From Acidimicrobiaceae bacterium (GTDB taxonomy: Bacteria > Actinomycetota > Acidimicrobiia > Acidimicrobiales > RAAP-2), in NCBI GenBank assembly GCA_003164095.1, contig PLRX01000089.1, positions 1 to 64,000 on the forward strand: 64,000 nt of DNA. Reading direction: 5' to 3'. The notes beneath the pieces were generated by a model that searched no databases, was not told the DNA's origin, and saw only the letters and a program-made list of their open reading frames with translations. This document shows positions 1 through 12,181 of the stretch, piece after piece. Both the position numbers and the translations under genes were made by a program. The number at the start of each line of letters is the position of its first letter. The stretch's first letter is position 1.

Positions 1-1
1 C

Positions 2-1432
2 TCAGCCATGAGATCCTCCCGGTGCCTTCGGGGTCGAGGTGCCGGGAACTCGACCGGGCCGGTTGGCGGCTCCCTGGACTACTCCCGCACCGCTCGGGGC
101 GCCGGCACCTCCCGTGGTGGACGTAGGTGTGCCGTCCGAGGAGGGGCGATGGCCACCAACGGGGCGACTTCCTGCGGCAGTTGCTGCCCCGCCGGTCGTG
201 GCATCGCCGGCCGCACGGTCTCCCGCGCCGCCGCCGGTCGGCCCGCTGGCGTTCGGTCCAGTGGGGCTCGGACTCCCCGACGTGTTGGATGAACCGGTTC
301 CGGTGGCAGCGGGTGAATGGGCCGTGCTCGGGTCCGGGCCCTCGCTGGCCCCAGCGGCCGACCTCGCGCCGGCCTTGGCGGCCCCGGCCGCAGCTCCTAC
401 TCCGGCGGCTGCCGCGATCCCGACGGGTCCGGCCGCTGCACCGGCTTCCACGAGCGCTTTGCTGCCGCCTCCGCCTCCCATCATCTTCGCCGTACCGGCG
501 ACACGGCTCCCCATATAAGTCATCCGACCCGGCGCGCTGATCTGGGATGCCGCGGCTGCCGCGTGCTCGGTCGCCGCCGGTACATGCCTCAGGGCCATGG
601 GAAGGGCCAGCGAACCGAGGATGAGGAACGCCAGGCAGAGGAACAGGGTCGTCATGTCCCCACCGACCGCACCGGTGCTCGAGCCGGACAGCTGGCCGCT
701 GTTGAGGTCGGCGGCGGCCAGCACCATGAGCATGGTGATGACCAGTTGGGAGAGGATCGTGGCGATGATCAGATCGATCAACCGCTTGATCCAGTGGGCC
801 GTCCCGCCCCAGTAGAGCCCGCAGAGCGCCAGCGGTATGGCGAGCACCTCCAGATAGAGCAGCGCTCCCCGGAGGGCGAGGACGAACCAGATAACCAGGG
901 CGGCCAAGCCGGCCAGGGCCACGATGAGGGCCGCCGCCAACCCGGGCAAGCTGCTGCCACCGGTGCTGACGGTGGCCGAAAGGGCGAAATCGGACAGGTG
1001 ACCGAGGCCCTGCCCGAATCCCTGGTTGCCACCAAGGGCCACGTTCACCAGGAGGCCGCAACAGGCATTGACCAGGGTCAGGACGCCGGCGGTTACCGGG
1101 ATCGCGACAGCCGTCCCGATGGCCATCATGACTGGCGCCCCGAGACCTCGTTTCAGCACCGAGGTCAGGTCACCCCGTAGGGCGGCAGTCCCCACTCCGA
1201 TGAAGAGGATGGGCACGGACAGCCAGGCGACCACGGTGAGCATGGCCCGCCACGGGCCCTTGAACCACGATGTGAAGTCCGGGGTGGTGGTCGCCTGCAT
1301 GGCGTGGATCACACCGCCGATTGCCCAGCTGGTGAACCCACCGATCCCCTGAGAGATCGAGTGCCCGAACCATCCGACGATGTCCTGGCCAATGCCACCC
1401 AGAGGGTCGAACAGTGAGAGTCCGATGAGCAT
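2..1432 (-). CDS. TrbL/VirB6-like conjugal transfer polytopic membrane protein
   Basis: ATG at 1432 (MLIGLSLFDPLGGIGQDIVGWFGHSISQG...), many TM segments, Gly/Ala/Thr/Pro-rich C-terminal tail; adjacent to a pilin-like small TM protein. The longer listed ORF includes an artefactual N-terminus overlapping the upstream gene. Confidence 0.6.
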   Translation of the reverse strand: MLIGLSLFDPLGGIGQDIVGWFGHSISQGIGGFTSWAIGGVIHAMQATTTPDFTSWFKGPWRAMLTVVAWLSVPILFIGVGTAALRGDLTSVLKRGLGAPVMMAIGTAVAIPVTAGVLTLVNACCGLLVNVALGGNQGFGQGLGHLSDFALSATVSTGGSSLPGLAAALIVALAGLAALVIWFVLALRGALLYLEVLAIPLALCGLYWGGTAHWIKRLIDLIIATILSQLVITMLMVLAAADLNSGQLSGSSTGAVGGDMTTLFLCLAFLILGSLALPMALRHVPAATEHAAAAASQISAPGRMTYMGSRVAGTAKMMGGGGGSKALVEAGAAAGPVGIAAAAGVGAAAGAAKAGARSAAGASEGPDPSTAHSPAATGTGSSNTSGSPSPTGPNASGPTGGGAGDRAAGDATTGGAATAAGSRPVGGHRPSSDGTPTSTTGGAGAPSGAGVVQGAANRPGRVPGTSTPKAPGGSHG

Positions 1433-1433
1433 C

Positions 1434-1754
1434 TCAGCTGACCGAGGTGCCAAAGTTGAAGGCCCAGGTGATGAGGAAGACCCCGGCGCCAATGATGACG
1501 GCCCCGGCGAAGGCGGCCAGCACCTTGTGCTGGGAGACCGAGGTCCGGTTGATGGACCCGTTCTGGACTCCCCACCACAGACCGGCACCGCCGATGATGA
1601 GGCCGAGCAGGCAGGCGTAGACGGCCCACTGTTCGATCCCGCCAAGGAAGGACTGAACCTGGGACGAGCCCGGGAGCGAGCCGTTCGGGGTGATGGTGAA
1701 GTTGGCAGCCAAGAGGGGTGAGGCGATGTTCGGAACAAACGACTGAGGGATCAT
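1434..1754 (-). CDS. Small two-TM VirB2/TrbC-like (DUF6112-type) membrane protein
   Basis: 106 aa, N-terminal extracytoplasmic segment plus two hydrophobic helices (AVYACLLGLIIGGAGLWWG; VLAAFAGAVIIGAGVFLITWAF), directly upstream of the TrbL-like gene. Confidence 0.5.
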   Translation of the reverse strand: MIPQSFVPNIASPLLAANFTITPNGSLPGSSQVQSFLGGIEQWAVYACLLGLIIGGAGLWWGVQNGSINRTSVSQHKVLAAFAGAVIIGAGVFLITWAFNFGTSVS

Positions 1755-1814
1755 TGGACCTCCGGGGCTCTGGGCGGGACCGTGCGTCCTCGCCGTCGCC
1801 CATGTTCCGGATCC

Positions 1815-1940
1815 ACGTCACCCTCAACGTCACCCTGGTTGAAGAAGCCAGTGACCAGGGGCGTTGCTGAAGGCTCGGACGTCACCCTCGCGCCAGCAAG
1901 TGGTGCATGGGTTGTTGAGGTGACGTCGAAGTCACCTCAA
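1815..1940. repeat. Cluster of ACGTCACCCT direct repeats and inverted repeats upstream of the transfer genes
   Basis: ACGTCACCCT at 1815-1824, 1827-1836 and 1879-1888; CCCTGGT(1833-1839)/ACCAGGG(1854-1860) inverted repeat; perfect TTGAGGTGAC-gtcgaa-GTCACCTCAA at 1915-1940. Confidence 0.75.
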
Positions 1941-2087
1941 GCGGTGAGATCCCAGCGCCTGGACGTCCTCAGCGTTCTCGGTGATCAACATGCCGGTTCG
2001 TACGACCGGATCAAACCCAAGGCGGCTGAAAGGGAACCAGGTGCAACTCGGCGACCATGCCATCATTTGGTTGGCCTCGAGGCCGGC

Positions 2088-2357
2088 CTAGATGGCCACC
2101 CACCCCTTGCGAAAGATTTCGTTCATGCTCTCTTCGTTCAGGATGACGAGCGATCCGGGTCGGTCGGGGTTGATGGTGATCCAAACAGAGTCACCTGGGC
2201 CTACCCCAATCGACTTGATCTGATCAGATGGCAGAGTGACCTGGTTCCTCTGCCCGATCACTCGAGGTCCGTCTGGGTGTGCATCCACCACTACAGGATA
2301 TGAAAGTTCATATCCTGTGTCGATGCCCCGCTGGCGCCACACTTCCGGGCGTGCCAC
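2088..2357 (-). CDS. AbrB/SpoVT-type DNA-binding or antitoxin-like protein
   Basis: 89 aa with GQRNQVTLPSDQIKSIGVGPGDSVWI, an AbrB swapped-hairpin-like signature (QVTLP...IGV.PGD.V). Confidence 0.55.
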   Translation of the reverse strand: MARPEVWRQRGIDTGYELSYPVVVDAHPDGPRVIGQRNQVTLPSDQIKSIGVGPGDSVWITINPDRPGSLVILNEESMNEIFRKGWVAI

Positions 2358-2416
2358 GATGCGACCCGTGGCTGTCGGCGCGCTATCGGTGCAATGTCAC
2401 ACCCAGCCGTCAGAAT

Positions 2417-2430
2417 CGAACACATGTTCG
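2417..2430. promoter_or_regulatory. LexA/SOS-box-like palindrome CGAACACATGTTCG
   Basis: CGAAC-ACAT-GTTCG, matching the core of the actinobacterial CGAAC-N4-GTTCG SOS box; lies between the AbrB-like gene and the 2476 ORF. Confidence 0.6.
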
Positions 2431-2475
2431 TGACGGAGCAGCGCCGCAGCCATAACCATGCGAAGGGGACCTCTA

Positions 2476-2868
2476 ATGCCTGATGCGACCGCTCCGGAGC
2501 CTCAGTTCGCCACTTGCAAGTGTGAGGCAGCCGCTCAGCGGGCCGTGCTGGGTTATGAGGTTGCTGGTATCGCTGCCAGCATCGGACCCCTCGACCTGCC
2601 GAGACAGCGGGAGACAAGTTGCCGAGGTTGGGCGGTGACAGTTCCGAGCCTGGGTCGCGTTGAATGTGTTCTTGACTCCCGGGCGGATCTGAACGCTGTT
2701 GGCCCAGAGCTGGATCAACTGAGCAATGCGGGTTGGAGCGTTTGGGCGTTGGTGCCACTCGATCGCCTGTCGCGCGCCCACGAGGCGTTTCAGTCAGGCG
2801 TTGAGTTCGTTCAAGGCTGGTGGGAGAACAACGGGGCCATCGCCTTCACGGCGCCCGAAATCCCCTGA
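2476..2868 (+). CDS. Hypothetical protein (about 130 aa)
   Basis: ORF with purine-rich GAAGGGGA upstream of ATG 2476; ...GRVECVLDSRADLNAVGPELDQLSNAGWSVWALVPLDRLSRAHEAF...; no family confidently recognised. Confidence 0.6.
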   Translation: MPDATAPEPQFATCKCEAAAQRAVLGYEVAGIAASIGPLDLPRQRETSCRGWAVTVPSLGRVECVLDSRADLNAVGPELDQLSNAGWSVWALVPLDRLSRAHEAFQSGVEFVQGWWENNGAIAFTAPEIP

Positions 2869-2939
2869 TCCACAGCGTGGATGTCCTACCGTGGAGTTAG
2901 AGTCGCGATTTCGAGTCGGCTTCTGACGAACGGCAGGTC

Positions 2940-3884
2940 ATGGCACAGGCCATCTATACGCAGACGACCATCGCCATGGTCTGGGATTTTGACAAGACGC
3001 TGATCCCCGGGTACTCCCAGAAACCGATCTTTGAAGAGTACGGAATCGATGAAGCGCGTTTCTGGCGCGAAGTAAACGGCCTCGAGGACCTCTACCGGCG
3101 CCGGGATCTGCTCGTAGCCAAGGACACCGCGTATTTGCTCCACATGCTCTCGTACGTCAGAGAGGGAGCGATGGCCGGTCTCACCAACTCAAAGCTTGTC
3201 GAGCTTGGTGCCCGGATCGAGATGTGCCCTGGGATTCCTGACTTTCTCCCCCACATTCAGGAGCTCGTTGCATCTGACGATCGCTTCGCCAGCCACGGAA
3301 TCTCGGTCGAGCACTACATCGTCTCGACTGGGATCAGGCACCTGATCGAAGGCAGTTCCGTAAGCGCGCACGTTCAGAAGATCTGGGCCAACGAGTTCGT
3401 CGATCAACCTCCCGGCCCAGGCTACGACCCGGCCACCCATGAGTTTGAGGCAAATGATGGAGTGATTGCCCAAGTTGGGTACATGATCGACAACACCTCC
3501 AAAACCAGGGCCATCTTTGAGATCAACAAGGGTCCTGATGTCGAGGTGAATGCTCGGATGGCCGAAGAAGAGAGAAAAGTCCCGATAAAGAACATGATCT
3601 ACATTGCCGATGGGCCGAGCGATGTCCCTGTGTTCTCTGTCGTGGGCGTGAACGGGGGAAGGCGCCTCGGCGTCTATCAGACGGCGGAGCCCTCGAACTT
3701 CGAAGGAGTCAAGCAACTCGAGGACGATGCGAGGGTCGACAGCATTGCAGAGGCGAACTTCATGCAGGGTACGCAAGCGTGGAGGTGGCTTACGTCCGAA
3801 GTCCGACGAATTGGGACAAGGATCTGCGACGATCGAGATCGCTACCTCGCCGCCGTGAAGGCTCCTGCCGGGCACATCACCTAA
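2940..3884 (+). CDS. HAD-superfamily hydrolase/phosphatase-like protein
   Basis: DxDxT nucleophile motif MVWDFDKTLIP near the N-terminus; later YIADGPSDVPVFSVV resembles HAD motif IV. Confidence 0.75.
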   Translation: MAQAIYTQTTIAMVWDFDKTLIPGYSQKPIFEEYGIDEARFWREVNGLEDLYRRRDLLVAKDTAYLLHMLSYVREGAMAGLTNSKLVELGARIEMCPGIPDFLPHIQELVASDDRFASHGISVEHYIVSTGIRHLIEGSSVSAHVQKIWANEFVDQPPGPGYDPATHEFEANDGVIAQVGYMIDNTSKTRAIFEINKGPDVEVNARMAEEERKVPIKNMIYIADGPSDVPVFSVVGVNGGRRLGVYQTAEPSNFEGVKQLEDDARVDSIAEANFMQGTQAWRWLTSEVRRIGTRICDDRDRYLAAVKAPAGHIT

Positions 3885-4031
3885 CCGAGACAATCTCGAG
3901 GATCGGCTGGCACGACTTCGACCAGGTCCGGTCAGATCGAAAGTTGCGAAGTCTCCTGCCGGCGGTTGCGGAGCCATGGATCGAATCCCAAGCATGACGG
4001 CCCTGCCTTCCCCTACCACCCCCTGAGCCGT

Positions 4032-4047
4032 ACGAACACGTGTTCGT
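4032..4047. promoter_or_regulatory. LexA/SOS-box-like perfect palindrome ACGAACACGTGTTCGT upstream of the Ubl cassette
   Basis: 16-bp perfect palindrome containing CGAAC-ACGT-GTTCG, 47 bp upstream of the Ubl ATG at 4095. Confidence 0.65.
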
Positions 4048-4094
4048 GTAAGCTCTGAGTGGTCGGCGTGTGTCGATCGGTCAGGAGAAATGAG

Positions 4095-4367
4095 ATGCCC
4101 CCGGAAGAAGAGACTCAGGCCCATCCGGACCGGTTCGAGATCGTCGTCGACACCGTCGAGCACACCGTGCACGCCGCCGAAGTGAGTTGGAAGCATGTCG
4201 TGGATATCGCGTACCCGGGCCAGGCCGACGACCCGCAATACGTCTTCAAGGTCCAATACGAGGACGCCAGGAGCCATCCCACGTCGGGGACGCTGGTGAA
4301 GGGTCATCACGTAACCGTCGAGCGGAGTGGAACCACATTCAGTGTCCTTCGATCCGTGGTCTCGTAG
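4095..4367 (+). CDS. Ubiquitin-like protein (single multiubiquitin-type domain)
   Basis: 90 aa: RFEIVVDTVEHTVHAAEVSWKHVVDIAYPGQADDPQYVFKVQYED...GTLVKGHHVTVERSGTTFSVLRSVVS, beta-grasp-like pattern with L-x-x-G-x-x-V-x-V and G-T-x-F-x-V ending; AGGAG at 4083; directly followed by a ThiF gene. Confidence 0.75.
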   Translation: MPPEEETQAHPDRFEIVVDTVEHTVHAAEVSWKHVVDIAYPGQADDPQYVFKVQYEDARSHPTSGTLVKGHHVTVERSGTTFSVLRSVVS

Positions 4368-5526
4368 TCCCGACTTAGCGAGGCTCATCGCAGCGGGCTA
4401 CGAGCTGGAGTTGACAGGCGACGGCTACCTGCTCGTACGCAACATCCCGTACTTGGACGAACATCAATCGATCCAACGGGGATCGGTGGTCTCAAAGTTG
4501 GAATTGAATGGTGACGTGACGGTCAATCCAGTGGCTGACCACGTCGCGTATTTCGTGGGCACAACACCACATCGGTGGAACGGCGAGCAGCTGACGCCGC
4601 TGGCCGGTGCCAATCTTGTGCTCGCCGATGGTCGGATTGCTCAGTTTTCGATGTCGCTCAAGTGCCCGACGGAGGATCGCTACCCCGACTACTTCTCGAA
4701 GATCGAGTACCACGTGCAGAACATCGAGAATGAAGCGAAGCAACTCGATGCGGCGGTGACCTCGCAGACGTTCGGCCCATGCATCATCAAGAACGATGAG
4801 TGGCCTTTCGAATATGCCGACACCGCCAGTGGACGTGCGGGAATCGGTGCAACTAACGGACGCCTCGCCGGCCAGAAGATCGCCATTGTTGGCCTCGGCG
4901 GCACCGGCTCCTACATTCTTGATCTCGTCGCGAAGTGTCCGGTTGCCGAAATCCATCTCTACGATGGGGACCGCTTCTCAAGTCATAATGCCTTCCGCTC
5001 GCCCGGAGCGGCGAGCCTGGATGAGGTTCGAATCGGTAGACCGAAGGTCGAACGCTATGCGGAAATCTATTCGCAACTGAAGCGCAGGATCACACCCCAC
5101 CCCTACAACATCGATGCCGCGAATGTCTCAGAACTCGCAGCGTTCGACTTCGTCTTCCTGGCCATGGAGGGAGGAGCGACAAAACTCGCGATCGTCGAAG
5201 CGTTGGAAAACATGGGCAAGCCATTCGTCAATGCCAGCATGGGTGTCAAGAAGCCCGGCGACGGCGACCAGCTTCAGGCAGTCGTTGAAGTGAATGGAAG
5301 CACTGTCGACAACCGTGACAGTTTTCGGCAGACGGTCGACTTCGGGGAGGTTGATCCGGACGATCCGTACCTTGAGAACATTCAGGTTGCCGAACTCAAT
5401 GCCCTCAACGCGACGATGGCCGTTCTCTGGTGGAAGAAGTGGGCGGCGATCTACGTGAGCAACAAGCCAAATTTCGGAATGCTCATTGACACCTACCTCG
5501 ACGTATACACGACGTACCGTTCGTGA
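4327..5526 (+). CDS. ThiF/E1-like adenylyltransferase with DUF6791-type N-terminal domain
   Basis: IAIVGLGGTGSYILDLVAKCPVAEIHLYDGDRFSSHNAFRSPGAASLDEV is the E1/ThiF nucleotide-binding signature; N-terminal YLLVRNIPYLDEHQSIQRGSVVSKLEL and YADTASGRAGIGA match the DUF6791-ThiF architecture. GTG 4327 (or GTG 4342) overlaps the Ubl end. Confidence 0.85.
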   Translation: MEPHSVSFDPWSRSPDLARLIAAGYELELTGDGYLLVRNIPYLDEHQSIQRGSVVSKLELNGDVTVNPVADHVAYFVGTTPHRWNGEQLTPLAGANLVLADGRIAQFSMSLKCPTEDRYPDYFSKIEYHVQNIENEAKQLDAAVTSQTFGPCIIKNDEWPFEYADTASGRAGIGATNGRLAGQKIAIVGLGGTGSYILDLVAKCPVAEIHLYDGDRFSSHNAFRSPGAASLDEVRIGRPKVERYAEIYSQLKRRITPHPYNIDAANVSELAAFDFVFLAMEGGATKLAIVEALENMGKPFVNASMGVKKPGDGDQLQAVVEVNGSTVDNRDSFRQTVDFGEVDPDDPYLENIQVAELNALNATMAVLWWKKWAAIYVSNKPNFGMLIDTYLDVYTTYRS

Positions 5527-5933
5527 TGTCTACGATCACCGAAGTCACTTACGCCTTCGTCGACTCAGCTCCGGGGCAGCTGGAGCCAGGCAAGATCTAC
5601 ATCTCCACGAGGTACCGTGCGATCGTCCACCTCTGCCTTTGCGGGTGCAACGAGAAGGTTCTACTCAGACTTGATCCAGGCGAGTGGAGCTTCACCTTCG
5701 ATGGCCGAACAATCTCCATTCACGATTCCGTTGGCAACGTCGGGCTGCCTTGCCGATCGCACTACTTTGTGCGACGGAACCGGGTCCATTGGTTACCACC
5801 ACTTCTCGAAGTCGATCCTGAGGTGGCACTGGGTCAGAGATCCGCTCGCGACGAACAGAGCGAGAGGTCGACAACAAGGAGCTTTGCTCGCTGGTTCCGT
5901 CGGCGCCGATCCCGCCCTCCAGAAAACGCTTGA
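5526..5933 (+). CDS. DUF6527-family Cys-rich protein, partner of the Ubl/E1 cassette
   Basis: FVDSAPGQLEPGKIYISTRYRAIVHLCLCGCNEKVLLRLDPGEWSFTFDGRTISIHDSVGNVGLPCRSHYFVRRNRVHWL matches the remembered DUF6527 signature; start overlaps the ThiF stop as TGATG at 5524-5528. Confidence 0.8.
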   Translation: MSTITEVTYAFVDSAPGQLEPGKIYISTRYRAIVHLCLCGCNEKVLLRLDPGEWSFTFDGRTISIHDSVGNVGLPCRSHYFVRRNRVHWLPPLLEVDPEVALGQRSARDEQSERSTTRSFARWFRRRRSRPPENA

Positions 5934-5984
5934 GATGCTGGTCGCCGCGACACATGAATAACGCTCAGGCTCAGGACCAGACCA

Positions 5985-7226
5985 TTAGCGCTCTGGTGGA
6001 GGACACTCGATACCTGCGATCTGCATGAGCGCACAGAACGTGTCACGAGCTACCTTCCACTCGCCGTCGACGAGGACGGCGCGACCCTGTCGCCCGCGGA
6101 TCATCGGGGTGCCGCTAAAAGGCCCGGAGATGGTGAGGGAGAACACGACGCGGGCCTCGTGGTCATTCACAAATCGCAAGCCATCGACCTTCACCGATCG
6201 CTGGGACGGATCCTGGTCGATGCTGTGGCGTTGACCAGCAGCGAGAAGTGCCTCCCCGAGATTGGCACCTCCTTCGACGGCCGGGATGGAGCCGTCCGCT
6301 TCGTCGACATCGAGCATGCGTGCGAATGCGTCCTCGACGGCAGATCGGGCAGCTGATTCATCGTCTGGAGGTGGGCCAGGGATCGACGACCCGGGGGGAC
6401 CTTGAGGAGTGATCAGCTGGCTCAGCACGGACGAGTCCTGCTTTGGGCCAGGCTCCTGCTGTCGAAGTGCTCGAAGAGTCGCAGCCTGTTCGGATGTGAT
6501 GCCCTGTGACCGTTGCTCTACCGCTTCTTGTGAACTGAGCCCGGCGCCGATCCAATCAGCCACTTCCGCAAAAGGGATTCCGGCCGCCCACCACTCGCGG
6601 ATGACATCCCCTGGGCCGCGACCCTGGATGGCCAAGCGCCCAGCTTCGCCCGGAGTGAGGCCGAGGGCGTGCCACGTGTACGCGTCGGCGGCTTCGATCC
6701 CCATCGCTGCCCATCGCTGAGCTTCCTCATCCAGCCATTGTCTCTGGAGGTAGCCGTGCATGACCCTGGGGTCTCCACGTAGCAATCCACCTGCCATCAC
6801 CTGGCTACCGGTGACCGAAGGTGTCCGGCTGATCCAGGCGCTGGAGCCGAAAGAAGAACTCCGCGACCTGGACTGAGCCTGGGCTTGAGTGAAGGCTTCG
6901 ACTGGACCCAAGCCCTTCGCCTTTTCGGCCGATGCGGTGTCGATGTCGTAACCCATCTCGTGCCACAGGGCAGCTTCCGAGGAGTCGATCCCGGCGTCGC
7001 GCCATGCCTGGATGGTCGTGGGGTCCACCCCTGCCGCCATCCATTGGGCGGCTTCGAGACCCTCCGTCACTCCCTGTTGAATCCATGCTTCTGCACGAGC
7101 GATAGTGAAGCGCCAACTGCGCCAGATCTCGGCGTCACTGGGTTCGAATCCGGCTGCAATCCAGGCTTCCAACTGCTCAGGTTTGCTGTCGTCGGGTTCG
7201 GAGGCATCCACTCGTGTTCGCATCAC
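5985..7226 (-). CDS. Tryptophan-repeat protein (W-x2-AG-I motifs) with C-terminal NTF2-like/Mce-associated-like domain
   Basis: Repeated EAWIAAGFEPSDAEIW, QAWRDAGIDSSEAALWHEMGY, QRWAAMGIEAADAYTWHALGL, REWWAAGIPFAEVADWIGAGL; C-terminal VVFSLTISG...GRAVLVDGEWKVARDTFCALMQIAGIECPP. Confidence 0.65.
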   Translation of the reverse strand: MMRTRVDASEPDDSKPEQLEAWIAAGFEPSDAEIWRSWRFTIARAEAWIQQGVTEGLEAAQWMAAGVDPTTIQAWRDAGIDSSEAALWHEMGYDIDTASAEKAKGLGPVEAFTQAQAQSRSRSSSFGSSAWISRTPSVTGSQVMAGGLLRGDPRVMHGYLQRQWLDEEAQRWAAMGIEAADAYTWHALGLTPGEAGRLAIQGRGPGDVIREWWAAGIPFAEVADWIGAGLSSQEAVEQRSQGITSEQAATLRALRQQEPGPKQDSSVLSQLITPQGPPGSSIPGPPPDDESAARSAVEDAFARMLDVDEADGSIPAVEGGANLGEALLAAGQRHSIDQDPSQRSVKVDGLRFVNDHEARVVFSLTISGPFSGTPMIRGRQGRAVLVDGEWKVARDTFCALMQIAGIECPPPER

Positions 7227-7239
7227 TTGGACCTCGTGG

Positions 7240-8526
7240 TCACGCCGCGTCAGCCGCGCCGATGTCGATTGCTCGGGCCCACTCCGGGACGGACCCGCGC
7301 GGGTCCATCAGCCCGACGATCACGCGGATGCCCTTAGGCGCTGCCGCAGGCCATGGTGTGTGCCCGTCCGTCAGGACGACGATCAAGTCCGGCTTCGGGC
7401 GGAGCTCGGCCGCCTTGGCAAGCCCAACTCCCATGTCGGTTCCACCACCTCCGAGGAGGATGACGTCCTTGGCCTGCATCACCTTCTGCGCCTCGAAGGC
7501 CTCGGCATCGCAGCAGATGATGTCGAGCTGTCGACGTCCCACTCCCAGACTCCGGAGGACTCCGCCTACTTCCGCCAGGGACTGGGCGAGCATCCCGTCG
7601 TTCATGCTTCCCGAGGTGTCCAAGACCATGGCCACCTTCGGCAGAGGCTGGCGGAGACTCGGAAGGATCACGTCGCCCGAGATGGAGGACCGCCGAGATG
7701 GCTTGCGGTAGCTGAAGTCGACGCGACCGGCCACATCGGCCACGCCGCGACGCACTGCTGCAGCCAGTACCTGCTGCCATCGCACCGTCGGCTCGAGGAG
7801 TTCGCTGGCCCAGCGCTGCCAGCCGGCGGGCGTGTTCCCATAGAGCTGCTGGTGCTCTTTGATCTGCCGCGCGACCTCTCGCTCCAGGAGCTTCTGTGCT
7901 GCATCGGCGAGTCCTGAGCGATCGCTGTCCCAGGGCCGGCCCTGCCCGTCGCAGCCGCTCCCGCAATCTCCCTGGGACTGGTCATCCAGCCGCCCTGGTG
8001 GGAGCTGGAGATCCACAGCGCCCCCGAGGGCATCCCAATACTGTTCAGCGGTCCAACCGTCAGCGAGGCCAAGGGCGTGCGGAGTGACCGCGCCGTCCGG
8101 TCTCTTGGTTGTCCCAGCGACCAGATCATCGTTGATCTCCGCATCGGCCGCAGTGTTCCAACGTCGTTGGTCGGGATTGCCCTCGCTGACTGGTGCTTGA
8201 TGGCCGGACACCTCCCGGCATGGGAAGCGATCGCCATGGTGACGGAGCAAATGGCTGACCTGGTGGATCAACCAGAACCCCGTGGTCGGCACGTCCAACT
8301 CACTCATGACCTCAGGATCGAGGTACACATGCCACGACTGGTCGACGGGCAGCGCAGAGAGATCAAGTCGCTGGTCCGGGTGAAGGTCTAACTGGTCGAC
8401 GACGATGGGTTCGAGGGACAACAGAGCGCTCGCCATGTACGGCACCTGGTGCGCCGCCCACACGCGTGCGGCGGCCCACAGCCGCCGTTCTGTGGGACCC
8501 AACATGTCAAGCGATCCCTGTTTCAC
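7240..8526 (-). CDS. DUF2201-like VWA protein (metallopeptidase-like N-terminus plus von Willebrand A domain)
   Basis: MIDAS motif VAMVLDTSGSMNDG, GGGGTDMGVGL; N-terminal WLIHQVSHLLRHHGDRF resembles the zincin-like segment of this family. Confidence 0.75.
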   Translation of the reverse strand: MKQGSLDMLGPTERRLWAAARVWAAHQVPYMASALLSLEPIVVDQLDLHPDQRLDLSALPVDQSWHVYLDPEVMSELDVPTTGFWLIHQVSHLLRHHGDRFPCREVSGHQAPVSEGNPDQRRWNTAADAEINDDLVAGTTKRPDGAVTPHALGLADGWTAEQYWDALGGAVDLQLPPGRLDDQSQGDCGSGCDGQGRPWDSDRSGLADAAQKLLEREVARQIKEHQQLYGNTPAGWQRWASELLEPTVRWQQVLAAAVRRGVADVAGRVDFSYRKPSRRSSISGDVILPSLRQPLPKVAMVLDTSGSMNDGMLAQSLAEVGGVLRSLGVGRRQLDIICCDAEAFEAQKVMQAKDVILLGGGGTDMGVGLAKAAELRPKPDLIVVLTDGHTPWPAAAPKGIRVIVGLMDPRGSVPEWARAIDIGAADAA

Positions 8527-9619
8527 CTGGCCCCTCCCCGCTCAGAAGTCCTGCCGCTCGCAGGACGGGAGCGATCTCCAAGAGTCCACTCGGGAGCTCC
8601 GCTCCATCCGGGCGTGCTCCGGCCAACGCGCGCGCCGCCAGCGTGGCCACATCGGGTGCTTTCACGGCCACTCTCGCCACAACGCGCCATGCCGCGCTCC
8701 AGGATGCCGCATCCCCGTGGGCAATGGCGACGGTGGCGACAGCCGTCAAGACTGCGAAGGCTCGGTCGCTTCGTTCGGGAAGTTCGAAGCCGTCCGGATC
8801 GGCCAGGACCGCCTCAGGATCAGGCAAGTCCATGTTGGCCAGCCACGATAGGAACTCGATACCGGCGCCCTCGCCGACCGCGCCGATGACCAGGTGCATC
8901 CGGGCGCTTTCCGATGCGCCCACGGCATCACAGGTGGCGAGCAGCGTGGCCACCGAATCCCAGCTGCGAGGGCTCGGCCATCCTCGTCCAGCCTGATCGG
9001 CGATCTGGGGCACCTGGAGTGCCAGTGCCGGCCGCACCTCCAGAAACGCTCCGACGGCCGCCCTCACGGCCAGAGTCTGGGCATCGGACGGCGTGTGCCC
9101 CTCAAATACGGGCGGCGCACCGAAGCCCATGGCGATGCCCTTGGCCACGGCCTTCGCATCAACAGGCCAGTCCAGGTGGACCAGGCGATTCGCCAGGGGT
9201 GCTGACAGCTGCCATCCGTCGGCCGCCTCCTCGGGGGGATTGGCAGCTGCCACCACGCGGACGCTCTCGGGAAGGGCGAGATCGCCGACCACCCGCTCAA
9301 GCACGACCCGAAGCATTGCCGCCTGCACTGCGGGCGGGGCTGTCGTCAACTCGTCCAAGAAGAGCAGGCCGTGACCGGACGCGGCCAGCCTCCTCGCCCA
9401 GAGCGGCGGTGCCATCTGGACGGCCCCATCGATCACAACCGGTAGGCCGGCAAAGTCGGCAGGCTCGCGGATAGAGCCGATCACGACTTCGGTCGGCCAG
9501 CCAAGGGCCTCACCGAGAGCGCGTACGACCGATGTCTTGCCCGTGCCAGGACTCCCCCAGAGAAGAACCGGTACACCCGCCTGGACCGAGATGGACAGGG
9601 CCTCACTCACTGATGACAC
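8507..9619 (-). CDS. MoxR-type AAA+ ATPase
   Basis: Walker A LLWGSPGTGKTSVVRAL, Walker B HGLLFLDELTTAPPAVQAAMLRVVLE, sensor VRVVAAANPPEEAADGWQLSAPLANRLVHL. Confidence 0.85.
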   Translation of the reverse strand: MSSVSEALSISVQAGVPVLLWGSPGTGKTSVVRALGEALGWPTEVVIGSIREPADFAGLPVVIDGAVQMAPPLWARRLAASGHGLLFLDELTTAPPAVQAAMLRVVLERVVGDLALPESVRVVAAANPPEEAADGWQLSAPLANRLVHLDWPVDAKAVAKGIAMGFGAPPVFEGHTPSDAQTLAVRAAVGAFLEVRPALALQVPQIADQAGRGWPSPRSWDSVATLLATCDAVGASESARMHLVIGAVGEGAGIEFLSWLANMDLPDPEAVLADPDGFELPERSDRAFAVLTAVATVAIAHGDAASWSAAWRVVARVAVKAPDVATLAARALAGARPDGAELPSGLLEIAPVLRAAGLLSGEGPGETGIA

Positions 9620-9829
9620 GTCGATCGCAACTCACCTCCACTGCCCATTGTTCCAGATGCATGGCTTGAACCGTCCTGAACAGGGCAGCGTGCATTGCAT
9701 TCTGAATGTCAGGGGATTCCGCCGCTCCGTCTCGGTGATGACACCGGGGCTGCGATCACACTGACCTGGGCGTTCACCGAATCGGGTCGGCTTTAGGCGG
9801 AGACTCGCGGAGCCTCGGTCAATAAGACA

Positions 9830-10690
9830 TCAAGAGCTCGGCGAGTCGGCTTTGAGCGAGTACACGATCGTGACCTGGGCGCTGGCCTGTTGGGACCCCA
9901 CTTCCAGAGGAACGGCGGACGACTGGGCGGAGGTCCCCGCGGCGGAGTTGAAACCCGGGCTGGGCTGTGAGATTGGCGTCGTGTCTGTCAGCGAGCACAC
10001 CGGTCCGAGCCGTTCACTTGCGGATGCGGCCATAGTTTGGGCGTGGCTCACCGCCTGGTGAACTGCATCGGTCCGGGCATGGTCCTCGAGATTTCGGGTG
10101 TCCTTGATCGAGAAGGTTGCGGAGTTGATCTGGCCAGCATTCCCGGCGGCCCCGGAGACCGCGTCGATAACACTCCCAGCGGATGCAAGGTTGGTGATCA
10201 TTGCGGTGACGCTGTTATTGACGCCGTACCCGGTGAGCACCTCAGTTCCGTTCTTGAGTGTGTAGTTCGGTTGGACGCTTAGACCTGTCGTCTGGATGTT
10301 CTGTTTCGTCACCCCGCCGGCAGCGAAGGCCGCGATCACCGCCGCCGCAGCGGTGTTGTTGGACGCCAGGGCGGCCTGGGCCGTTGCCCCGGTCGTCGAG
10401 ATGGTGATGTCCACCGTGAGGGTGTCGGGAGTACCGGTCGCAACACCGGTTCCCTGAACCGTCAGCTTCGCTGAATTGGGGGAGCACCCCGGCACGCTCG
10501 CAGTCGAAGTGCTCCCTGTCGCACATCCGGTCGCAACGACGCCGGCCAGACCGACGGCGGCGATACCAACCGCGACGAAGTGATGGCGTCGCCCTGCAGT
10601 GCGTATCCGGGCAGGCACCTGAGCCTTAGTATCCGGGTCGACACCAGATCTACCTGGCACCTCAGATGTGTCGTCGGCGGTGTCGGACAT
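9830..10690 (-). CDS. SIMPL domain (DUF541) secreted protein
   Basis: LTVQGTGVATGTPDTLTVDITISTTGATAQAAL...VTKQNIQTTGLSVQPNYT...LTGYGVNNSVTAMI; N-terminal TM/lipobox-like ATGCATG; ATG at 10690. Confidence 0.8.
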   Translation of the reverse strand: MSDTADDTSEVPGRSGVDPDTKAQVPARIRTAGRRHHFVAVGIAAVGLAGVVATGCATGSTSTASVPGCSPNSAKLTVQGTGVATGTPDTLTVDITISTTGATAQAALASNNTAAAAVIAAFAAGGVTKQNIQTTGLSVQPNYTLKNGTEVLTGYGVNNSVTAMITNLASAGSVIDAVSGAAGNAGQINSATFSIKDTRNLEDHARTDAVHQAVSHAQTMAASASERLGPVCSLTDTTPISQPSPGFNSAAGTSAQSSAVPLEVGSQQASAQVTIVYSLKADSPSS

Positions 10691-10727
10691 GCCAATTCCT
10701 TCTTTCTGTGCTCGGGAGTGGAATTGA

Positions 10728-11558
10728 TCAACGGGATACGACGACAACCATGAACCACTGGTTCGGGACCTCGGCACACGACGGGGAAACGGTCGTGGCC
10801 TGCTGGTGCGATGCGGGTGGACAGGCGCTGGCGAGGGTTGCCGTGATCACCACATCACCAGGCTTAATGGCTTCGAAGACTGAGCTGCCCGACTGTCTCG
10901 CTCCATTTCGGGCCCTTCCCACCGCCCGCATGACGCCCGGATGAGTTCGGGACACACTTACAGGTAGTTCCTGGTGGAGCGTTGCCGAGAGACTTGAGGC
11001 GGAGGCGACGATCGGTGCCCCCCAGGACCCCGCTTTCGTCGCGGGCAGGCTGAGAGTGACCCGCTGGCCAACCTTGACGGTGACCGATGCCGGGGACGAC
11101 GTGACACCCGACGCGCCTGCAGCGCTGTTGGCACTGGCGAATCCTTGGATGACGGCTGCGGTAGCGAAGAACGCCCCGGCGCACCGGGACACTCCCGATT
11201 CCACGCTCACGGAGACGCATTCCGACTCGGTGCCCGCCCCCGATGGAGTGCCCACACTTGACGAGGGTCCGGAGGTAGCGGTGGAGCCTCCCACTGTAGG
11301 CGTCGGCACACGCGGGCCGGAGCCCGATGCCACCCGATTGTCCGTTCTTGCCGTAGTGGAGAGCACGCCGGTTCCCACTACCACCGCGATGATCGCAGCC
11401 ACGGCGCACCCGATCGTCGCCACAGTGCGGTGTCGCTTCACACGACGACGGCTGACATCGCCCATGAGTTCATTCGCGGAAGACCCCTTCGGCTGCCATG
11501 CCGACGAAACTTCGTCCATGGCTCTACGGAGCCGCGAGTCCAAGTCATCGGTTGTCAT
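10728..11558 (-). CDS. Single-pass membrane protein, probable anti-sigma partner of the downstream-numbered ECF sigma gene
   Basis: N-terminal cytoplasmic segment, TM TVATIGCAVAAIIAVVVGTGVL, Ser/Thr-rich linker; 4-bp overlap with the sigma gene. Confidence 0.55.
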   Translation of the reverse strand: MTTDDLDSRLRRAMDEVSSAWQPKGSSANELMGDVSRRRVKRHRTVATIGCAVAAIIAVVVGTGVLSTTARTDNRVASGSGPRVPTPTVGGSTATSGPSSSVGTPSGAGTESECVSVSVESGVSRCAGAFFATAAVIQGFASANSAAGASGVTSSPASVTVKVGQRVTLSLPATKAGSWGAPIVASASSLSATLHQELPVSVSRTHPGVMRAVGRARNGARQSGSSVFEAIKPGDVVITATLASACPPASHQQATTVSPSCAEVPNQWFMVVVVSR

Positions 11559-12181
11559 AGCTCATCCCTTTCGAGGCTCATGGAGCCGAGCATCGCCGAC
11601 AAGGAGGCGCGTGCTTTCGCCAGCTGGGACTTCACGGTCCCCACGCTGCAGCTAAGAATCCTGGCGATCTCGGCTTCAGGAAGATCCTCGTAGTAGCGGA
11701 GGATCACCGTTTCGCGTTGACGGGGCGGGAGACCACGGACTGCATCCATGACAATGAGGGAGTCGTCCGACGCAAGGGTGGTATCGGTGTCCGATCCTTC
11801 CGTCGACTGGCGATCGGGATCACTTGCGTAGATCCTGCGATTTGACCGGTCCTCGGTGCCACGTCGGCGAAGCCGCGACCTACACAGGTTGATGACAGCC
11901 GTCCGGAGGTACCAATGGGCACGCTCAAGGTGTCGGATCCGCCACCAATTCGAGAATGTTCGCAGGAATGCCTCTTGGACGACCTCTTCGGCTCCTCCGC
12001 GGTCACCGAGCAGGAGCGCCGCCAAACGGCACAATCCGTCGTAGTGCGTGACGAATAGATCTGCGATCTGCTCGTCACGATCGGATCTGGAGTCGTTCAC
12101 CGCGACATTCGTCCGATGATGGGCCCCGGCACCCAATTCAGCATTTGCCAGCGCCGGCAGCGGAACTCCCATACCTTCCAC
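11555..12181 (-). CDS. ECF RNA polymerase sigma factor (SigE-like)
   Basis: Region 2 VTHYDGLCRLAALLLGDRGGAEEVVQEAFLRTFSNWWRI and region 4 DAVRGLPPRQRETVILRYYEDLPEAEIARILSCSVGTVKSQLAKARASL. Confidence 0.85.
   Translation of the reverse strand: MEGMGVPLPALANAELGAGAHHRTNVAVNDSRSDRDEQIADLFVTHYDGLCRLAALLLGDRGGAEEVVQEAFLRTFSNWWRIRHLERAHWYLRTAVINLCRSRLRRRGTEDRSNRRIYASDPDRQSTEGSDTDTTLASDDSLIVMDAVRGLPPRQRETVILRYYEDLPEAEIARILSCSVGTVKSQLAKARASLSAMLGSMSLERDEL

Follow-up and report, generated by a model that had tools for sequence, protein, structure and literature searches.

A probable ubiquitin-like activation cassette, serine-ended and JAB-less, with a predicted LexA box in an Acidimicrobiaceae bacterium

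Introduction

Ubiquitin-type systems stand for a textbook glycine-and-cysteine chemistry, and the known E1 substrates of ubiquitin type end in glycine. A locus on contig PLRX01000089.1 of an Acidimicrobiaceae bacterium encodes a ubiquitin-like protein (Ubl), an E1-like protein and a DUF6527 protein, and the Ubl ends in serine. The question that this locus raises is what such a trio is for, and by which chemistry it could act. A first interpretation made from the letters of the DNA (the sequence-only reading) had seen in it a minimal Ubl-adenylation system, with a conflict or stress function suggested by its placement near conjugation genes. Here the locus was followed up in the window, that is, the whole stretch of 64,000 nucleotides analysed, and among its relatives in other genomes. 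The explanation that we favour, at a probability of about one half, is that the trio is an SOS-inducible, mobile Ubl-activation cassette, a JAB-less 'type 6e', in which the Ubl would be conjugated through the steps proposed below with a stress or anti-phage outcome.

Gene organization of the cassette

The features of the locus are as follows.

4033-4046, no strand assigned: predicted LexA (SOS) box, perfect palindrome CGAACACGTGTTCG, 48 bp 5' of the Ubl start
4095-4367, plus strand: Ubl gene, 90 amino acids, one multiubiquitin beta-grasp domain (PF14452)
4342-4367, plus strand: overlap of the Ubl and E1-like genes, 26 nt, dual-coding, with the Ubl stop and the E1 GTG start
4342-5526, plus strand: E1-like gene, 394 amino acids, DUF6791 at residues 10-161 and ThiF adenylation domain at residues 170-390, both approximate
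5526-5933, plus strand: DUF6527 gene (PF20137), 135 amino acids, predicted zinc-finger-like protein, all-beta apart from a C-terminal helix

The three domain assignments of the sequence-only reading were upheld by Pfam profile searches, which identified the Ubl as Multi_ubiq (PF14452, E 7.5e-9, with a score over the gathering cut-off), the E1-like protein as DUF6791 (PF20590, 8e-36) followed by ThiF (PF00899, 1e-14), and the third product as DUF6527 (PF20137, 2.2e-19). The E1-like protein also matches the NCBIfam model PRK06153 over its entire length (8.7e-120), and Pfam gave no rhodanese domain match in it. The Ubl gene starts at ATG 4095, with an AGGAG ribosome-binding site 7 nt upstream, and the DUF6527 gene at ATG 5526, within the TGATG junction where that reading had placed it. 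The claim that the ThiF gene starts inside the Ubl gene was likewise sustained: GTG 4342 is most likely the E1 start, because in 76 of the 78 distinct loci the two genes share exactly 26 nt, counted from the E1 start codon through the Ubl stop codon. Given this conserved overlap, the alternative GTG 4327 is left without support. Ahead of the E1 start, the Ubl gene shows only a slight Shine-Dalgarno enrichment relative to shuffles.

Neither a JAB nor an E2 gene was found in the cassette, as had been claimed. Profile searches across the genome gave no match to Prok-E2_E (PF14462), and its two JAB domains are both encoded on contigs other than that of the cassette.

Conservation, spread and genomic surroundings

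The locus set consisted of 80 loci from an E1 scan of bacterial and archaeal genomes plus 6 more from the same order, and with the window included it provided 87 E1 loci from many phyla. The Ubl gene lies directly upstream in 83 of them and the DUF6527 gene directly downstream in 86, on the same strand and in the same order; the sequence-only reading would have lost its basis had the E1 gene failed to co-occur with the other two. At one locus (L060) the Ubl was missed by the profile and found by eye, with the same tail as its relatives. The trio is thus a real conserved unit with a fixed order across phyla. Its E1 is matched by 119 plasmid records of PLSDB, most of the listed ones annotated as ThiF plus multiubiquitin, and the gene order also holds on plasmids, L092 and L093 among them. 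The distribution is patchy and mobile. A phage-borne system was considered and discarded: 50,697 phage records yielded no match and IMG/VR only 4.

The closest relative of the window cassette is L009, whose E1 is 80% identical. DNA similarity between the two is confined to 4123-5830, which gives each cassette a genomic setting of its own. The dN/dS values of this pair are 0.26 for the Ubl, 0.13 for the E1 and 0.19 for the DUF6527 gene, with dS near 1, and such low values indicate that the three genes are under purifying selection. The L009 contig also carries the type I restriction-modification genes HsdM and HsdS, at 6220-8731.

In the window the cassette belongs to a segment of about 12.2 kb (1-12181) whose genes have GC3 values of 0.64-0.76, compared with mostly 0.8-0.95 elsewhere in the window. 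The segment looks like a foreign island extending to the contig end, and no tRNA was found at the island edge within the window. The earlier placement of the cassette near conjugation genes was not borne out: the 578-amino-acid open reading frame at 2-1738 has no Pfam match, and only the shift in codon composition of this segment is clear. The island contains a HAD-like phosphatase gene (2940-3884) that matches the PADLOC phage-defence candidate PDC-S34 (8e-53); it was dismissed as a part of the cassette, as a search of the other loci detected no homologue of it. At 7240-9619, a DUF2201 putative metallopeptidase/VWA gene has as its neighbour an oppositely oriented gene for a MoxR-like AAA ATPase.

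Predicted control by DNA damage

The palindrome at 4033-4046 fits the motif CGAACRNRYGTTYG, for which shuffles expect 0.05 matches per window. About 10 distinct sites occur in the 3.7-Mb genome, against none for the backward control; two of the other sites precede lexA, one is at ruvC, and further ones precede a 2OG-Fe(II) oxygenase gene and an RNase_T/GIY-YIG nuclease gene. The motif agrees with the LexA site of B. subtilis, CGAACN4GTTCG (PMC3091678). The window cassette therefore carries a predicted LexA/SOS switch of the same motif as that found at lexA. A second perfect box is located at 2417-2430, so that two of roughly ten sites of the genome fall in this island. This second box lies between a MazE-like gene (2088-2357, minus strand) and a 136-amino-acid open reading frame (2458-2868, plus strand), which is followed by the HAD gene.

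No LexA box was found upstream of the other family members tested. Among 125 neighbour genes of the relatives, 32 match Pfam M78, 32 PADLOC capP and 17 capH, and CapP-like peptidases predominate among the upstream neighbours. An iterative search located CapP-like genes near 50 of 89 loci, a count that includes some near-duplicates and, the search being loose, may include other M78 peptidases. No CapP-like gene was found in the window, and adjacency to CapH/CapP is absent from the window copy. CapH and CapP turn on immune operons upon DNA damage and accompany many Bub operons (PMC13373217). Different copies of the cassette seem, from their flanking sequences, to use different DNA-damage switches. 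The predicted box of the window copy together with the CapP-like regulators elsewhere makes DNA damage a likely trigger, and hence a concrete condition under which to seek conjugates. The same two observations lend weight to the conflict or stress role proposed earlier, which now appears probable.

These data also bear on the possibility that the trio serves addiction or the maintenance of a mobile element instead of defence. Genes of mobile elements are often SOS-induced, and the 119 plasmid records fit such a role. Addiction-like roles were indeed suggested for such operons in the account of Iyer 2006 (PMC1779556). No toxin or antitoxin partner was recognized inside the trio, however, and it is immune operons that typically have CapH/CapP regulators (PMC13373217). 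A maintenance module is accordingly held to be quite unlikely.

The Ubl tail and the E1 active site

The window Ubl terminates in ...FSVLRSVVS, with serine last, valine penultimate and no glycine. Serine is the last residue in 58 of the 59 aligned sequences and alanine in the remaining one; no member of this alignment is Gly-ended. The penultimate residue is Lys or Arg in 57 of 59, the window and L009 having Val. The tail could have been conserved merely through its overlap with the E1 gene, and this was countered by two loci, L046 and L052, in which the overlap and the first E1 residues are absent and the Ubls still end in RS. Because these two keep the RS tail, the Ubl tail itself appears to be selected, and the aligned sequences point to a serine maintained for its own sake, beyond dual coding. 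Several Ubls from operons that do contain JAB and E2 are Gly-ended (TTTEG, QTEG) or have NNG before a fused E2.

The AF2 model of the E1-like protein (pLDDT 91) has as its best fold match in the PDB the Citrobacter BubCD structure 9ea5 (E 3.9e-13), followed by UBA5, ThiF and MccB. The ThiF domain aligns end to end with BubC in a profile comparison (hhalign, E 4.7e-18). In the family alignment the ATP-site residues GxGGTG, D208, D210, N216, R219 and K235 are invariant or nearly so, and the window E1 keeps the P-loop and all five of the others. No invariant cysteine was found in the E1 across the 59 aligned sequences. All 59 have a tyrosine immediately ahead of the final helix motif, at position 343 or one residue off. 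BubCD has an invariant tyrosine, Y370, in the matching stretch, with its register relative to Tyr343 shifted by an insertion; Y370 was placed on the Citrobacter BubCD sequence along with the JAMM Asp104. The title of PDB 9eav names a Y370F mutant, and the role given here to Y370 is read from that title alone. Tyr343 may, we infer, act as a nucleophile.

The E1 homology to ThiF and MoeB would suit a sulfur-carrier system of the ThiS/MoaD type, in which ThiF would charge the Ubl for thiocarboxylate chemistry. A C-terminal GG is missing from the Ubl, though, and the E1 has no rhodanese domain match; the neighbours are rich in CapP-like regulators, with metabolic genes not prominent, and the distribution is patchy and mobile. 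All of this makes a sulfur carrier highly improbable.

Less easily set aside is an MccB-like E1, whose product, a nucleotide-linked Ubl (Ubl-AMP or a rearranged form), would be an effector or signal without protein conjugation. MccB adenylates a peptide whose C-terminal residue is not glycine, MccB structures are among the fold matches of the ThiF domain, and an E1 without an invariant cysteine and with no recognizable E2 at its side would suit such a product. Nevertheless, BubCD surpasses MccB in both sequence and fold match, the DUF6527 partner is common to Bub operons that have E2 and JAB, and the Ubl fold is eukaryotic-like. The MccB-like reading is in our judgement unlikely.

The window E1 departs from the family at several positions. 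The adenylation-site Asp is replaced by Glu (D276E), and Y124H, D297N, G299S and R316E affect other positions of about 95% conservation. Together with the loss of the penultimate Lys/Arg from the Ubl, these changes could mean that the window copy is decaying or altered, the subclade that it forms with L009 having lost key E1 residues and persisting as a binding scaffold. Such decay is difficult to reconcile with three intact reading frames, with dN/dS of 0.13-0.26 at dS near 1, and with the retained P-loop, D208, D210, N216, R219 and K235. Moreover, several of the changes occur twice in the 59 sequences, which suggests that they are common to the 80%-identical L009. A decaying or altered copy is thus decidedly unlikely, slightly more so than a maintenance module.

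DUF6791 and DUF6527

DUF6791 occupies, at the E1 N-terminus, the place that the JAB domain (BubD) has in BubCD. That it is itself a JAB finds no support, a JAB profile having scored no better than shuffles. Comparison of DUF6791 with E2 profiles by hhalign gave E values of 0.006 (7 E2s) and 0.033 (14 E2s), against 0.047 for the unrelated DUF6527; the match is colinear across two strands plus the first helix, and it exceeds those of 100 out of 100 column-shuffled profiles. HMMER, in contrast, scored DUF6791 and E2 at the level of shuffled sequences, and DUF6791 is at most a tentative candidate for a fused E2. Position 77 in the E1 family, which belongs to DUF6791, is Cys in 50 of 59 sequences and His, Tyr or Ser in the other 9, the window among them, and these replacements dispose of C77 as a universal nucleophile of E2 type.

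The DUF6527 proteins have the pattern CxCGC...CxSH, with invariant C37, C39, C41, C76 and H79 and the spacing C37-x3-C41-x34-C76-x2-H79. The pattern is that of a putative small Cys/His metal-binding, zinc-finger-like protein. The AF2 model (pLDDT 84, rising to about 90 or above across the first ~90 residues) is all-beta with a C-terminal helix, and no significant fold match to it was found in the PDB. Related DUF6527 proteins also follow operons of JAB type.

Proposed mechanism

The favoured explanation, the SOS-inducible Ubl-activation cassette, would operate as follows. Repression by LexA at the promoter (4033-4046) would be lifted by DNA damage, phage infection included. The overlapping and translationally coupled genes would then yield the Ubl, the E1 and the DUF6527 protein. 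The ThiF domain would adenylate the C-terminal serine of the Ubl. Transfer of the Ubl to its protein targets would involve no conserved E1 cysteine and might use a hydroxyl nucleophile, for example that of Tyr343. The parts for transfer and target recognition would be DUF6791 and DUF6527, replacing a stand-alone E2 and E3, and the expected result is a stress or anti-phage response. Counted against this explanation are D276E and the other changed residues, the penultimate Val, the Ser-ended Ubl, the lack of HMMER support for an E2 and the failure to find the LexA box in front of the other family members tested.

A more specific version of the chemistry can be put forward tentatively, as possible but doubtful: a cysteine-independent Ubl conjugation, switched on by damage, that would start from a mature Ser end, pass through an oxyester (for instance at Tyr343) and rely on DUF6791 and DUF6527 for E2- and E3-like roles. 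JAB processing would here be unneeded, because the Ubl would be made with its mature C-terminal serine.

Comparison with known systems

The operon survey of Iyer 2006 (Iyer, Burroughs and Aravind) contains a type 6e, given as a row of Table 1 whose footnote b describes a 'domain X' replacing JAB (PMC1779556). The subset concerned shares with the window a Multi-Ubl protein (one to three domains there), an E1 with a non-JAB N-terminal domain, a small Cys/His metal-binding protein and a sporadic, mobile occurrence (PMC1779556). From the description given there, we infer that 'domain X' is DUF6791. With upstream Multi_ubiq, DUF6791-E1 and downstream Cys/His protein all present, the cassette is, judged by its predicted products, a JAB-less type 6e variant. 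The window copy differs in its single Ubl domain and its predicted LexA box; the Ser tail, the 26-nt overlap and the absence of an E1 cysteine receive no mention in the type 6e account of that paper (PMC1779556). Of the sequence-only reading, the minimal Ubl-activation cassette stands and the conjugation-gene placement found no confirmation; it had overlooked the type 6e and Bub kinship, the Ser tail, the lack of an invariant E1 cysteine and the SOS boxes.

The Bub pathway, BubA-BubB-BubCD (PDB 9ea4, 9eav; Gong 2025 and Ye 2026, as cited through PMC13373217 and PMC12687455), has in common with the window a Multi_ubiq Ubl and a homologous ThiF domain (BubC type). The likeness extends, for the cassette family, to a DUF6527 gene in annotated relatives, to the CapH/CapP association and perhaps to the conserved tyrosine before the final helix. 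In contrast, Bub has BubB/Prok-E2_E, separate or Ubl-fused, and a JAB (BubD), both missing from the window, where DUF6791 stands at the E1 N-terminus and the Ubl has a terminal Ser, unlike the TEG- or NNG-type glycine tails of several JAB-type operons. Because BubB and JAB are absent, the cassette is filed as a JAB-less 6e, a sister of Bub but not Bub. Phage protection even by Bub operons is not demonstrated, according to PMC13373217, and this too counts against the favoured explanation. Bub operons of JAB type with the Ubl fused to an E2-like domain were also seen on enterobacterial and other plasmids (for example L094, L095 and L112), some of them large and conjugative.

The structure 9cd2, entitled 'ZDHYS365 multi-ubiquitin domain protein', is a further member of this Ubl family (profile E 2.6e-25) and has 222 amino acids against the single-domain 90 of the window Ubl. 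It ends in ...TDKS, as in most relatives, and in its closest plasmid relatives the Ubl genes overlap the ThiF gene; at least one Ubl of the class has thus apparently been studied already. Only the Ubl is solved in 9cd2, the E1 and DUF6527 of the class being without a solved structure.

BilABCD and the Cap2 of type II CBASS share with the window the use of bacterial Ubl or E1-type conjugation in the setting of defence. They have a true E2 with an active cysteine and a JAB, whereas neither the stand-alone catalytic-Cys E2 nor the JAB of BilABCD was found in the cassette. What may be new here is the description of the class, by its Ser tail, its constant overlap and its E1 without an invariant cysteine, together with the predicted LexA box of the window copy. 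Being widespread, Ser-ended and JAB-less, and having no invariant E1 cysteine, the class offers a compact test of which parts of ubiquitin chemistry are dispensable.
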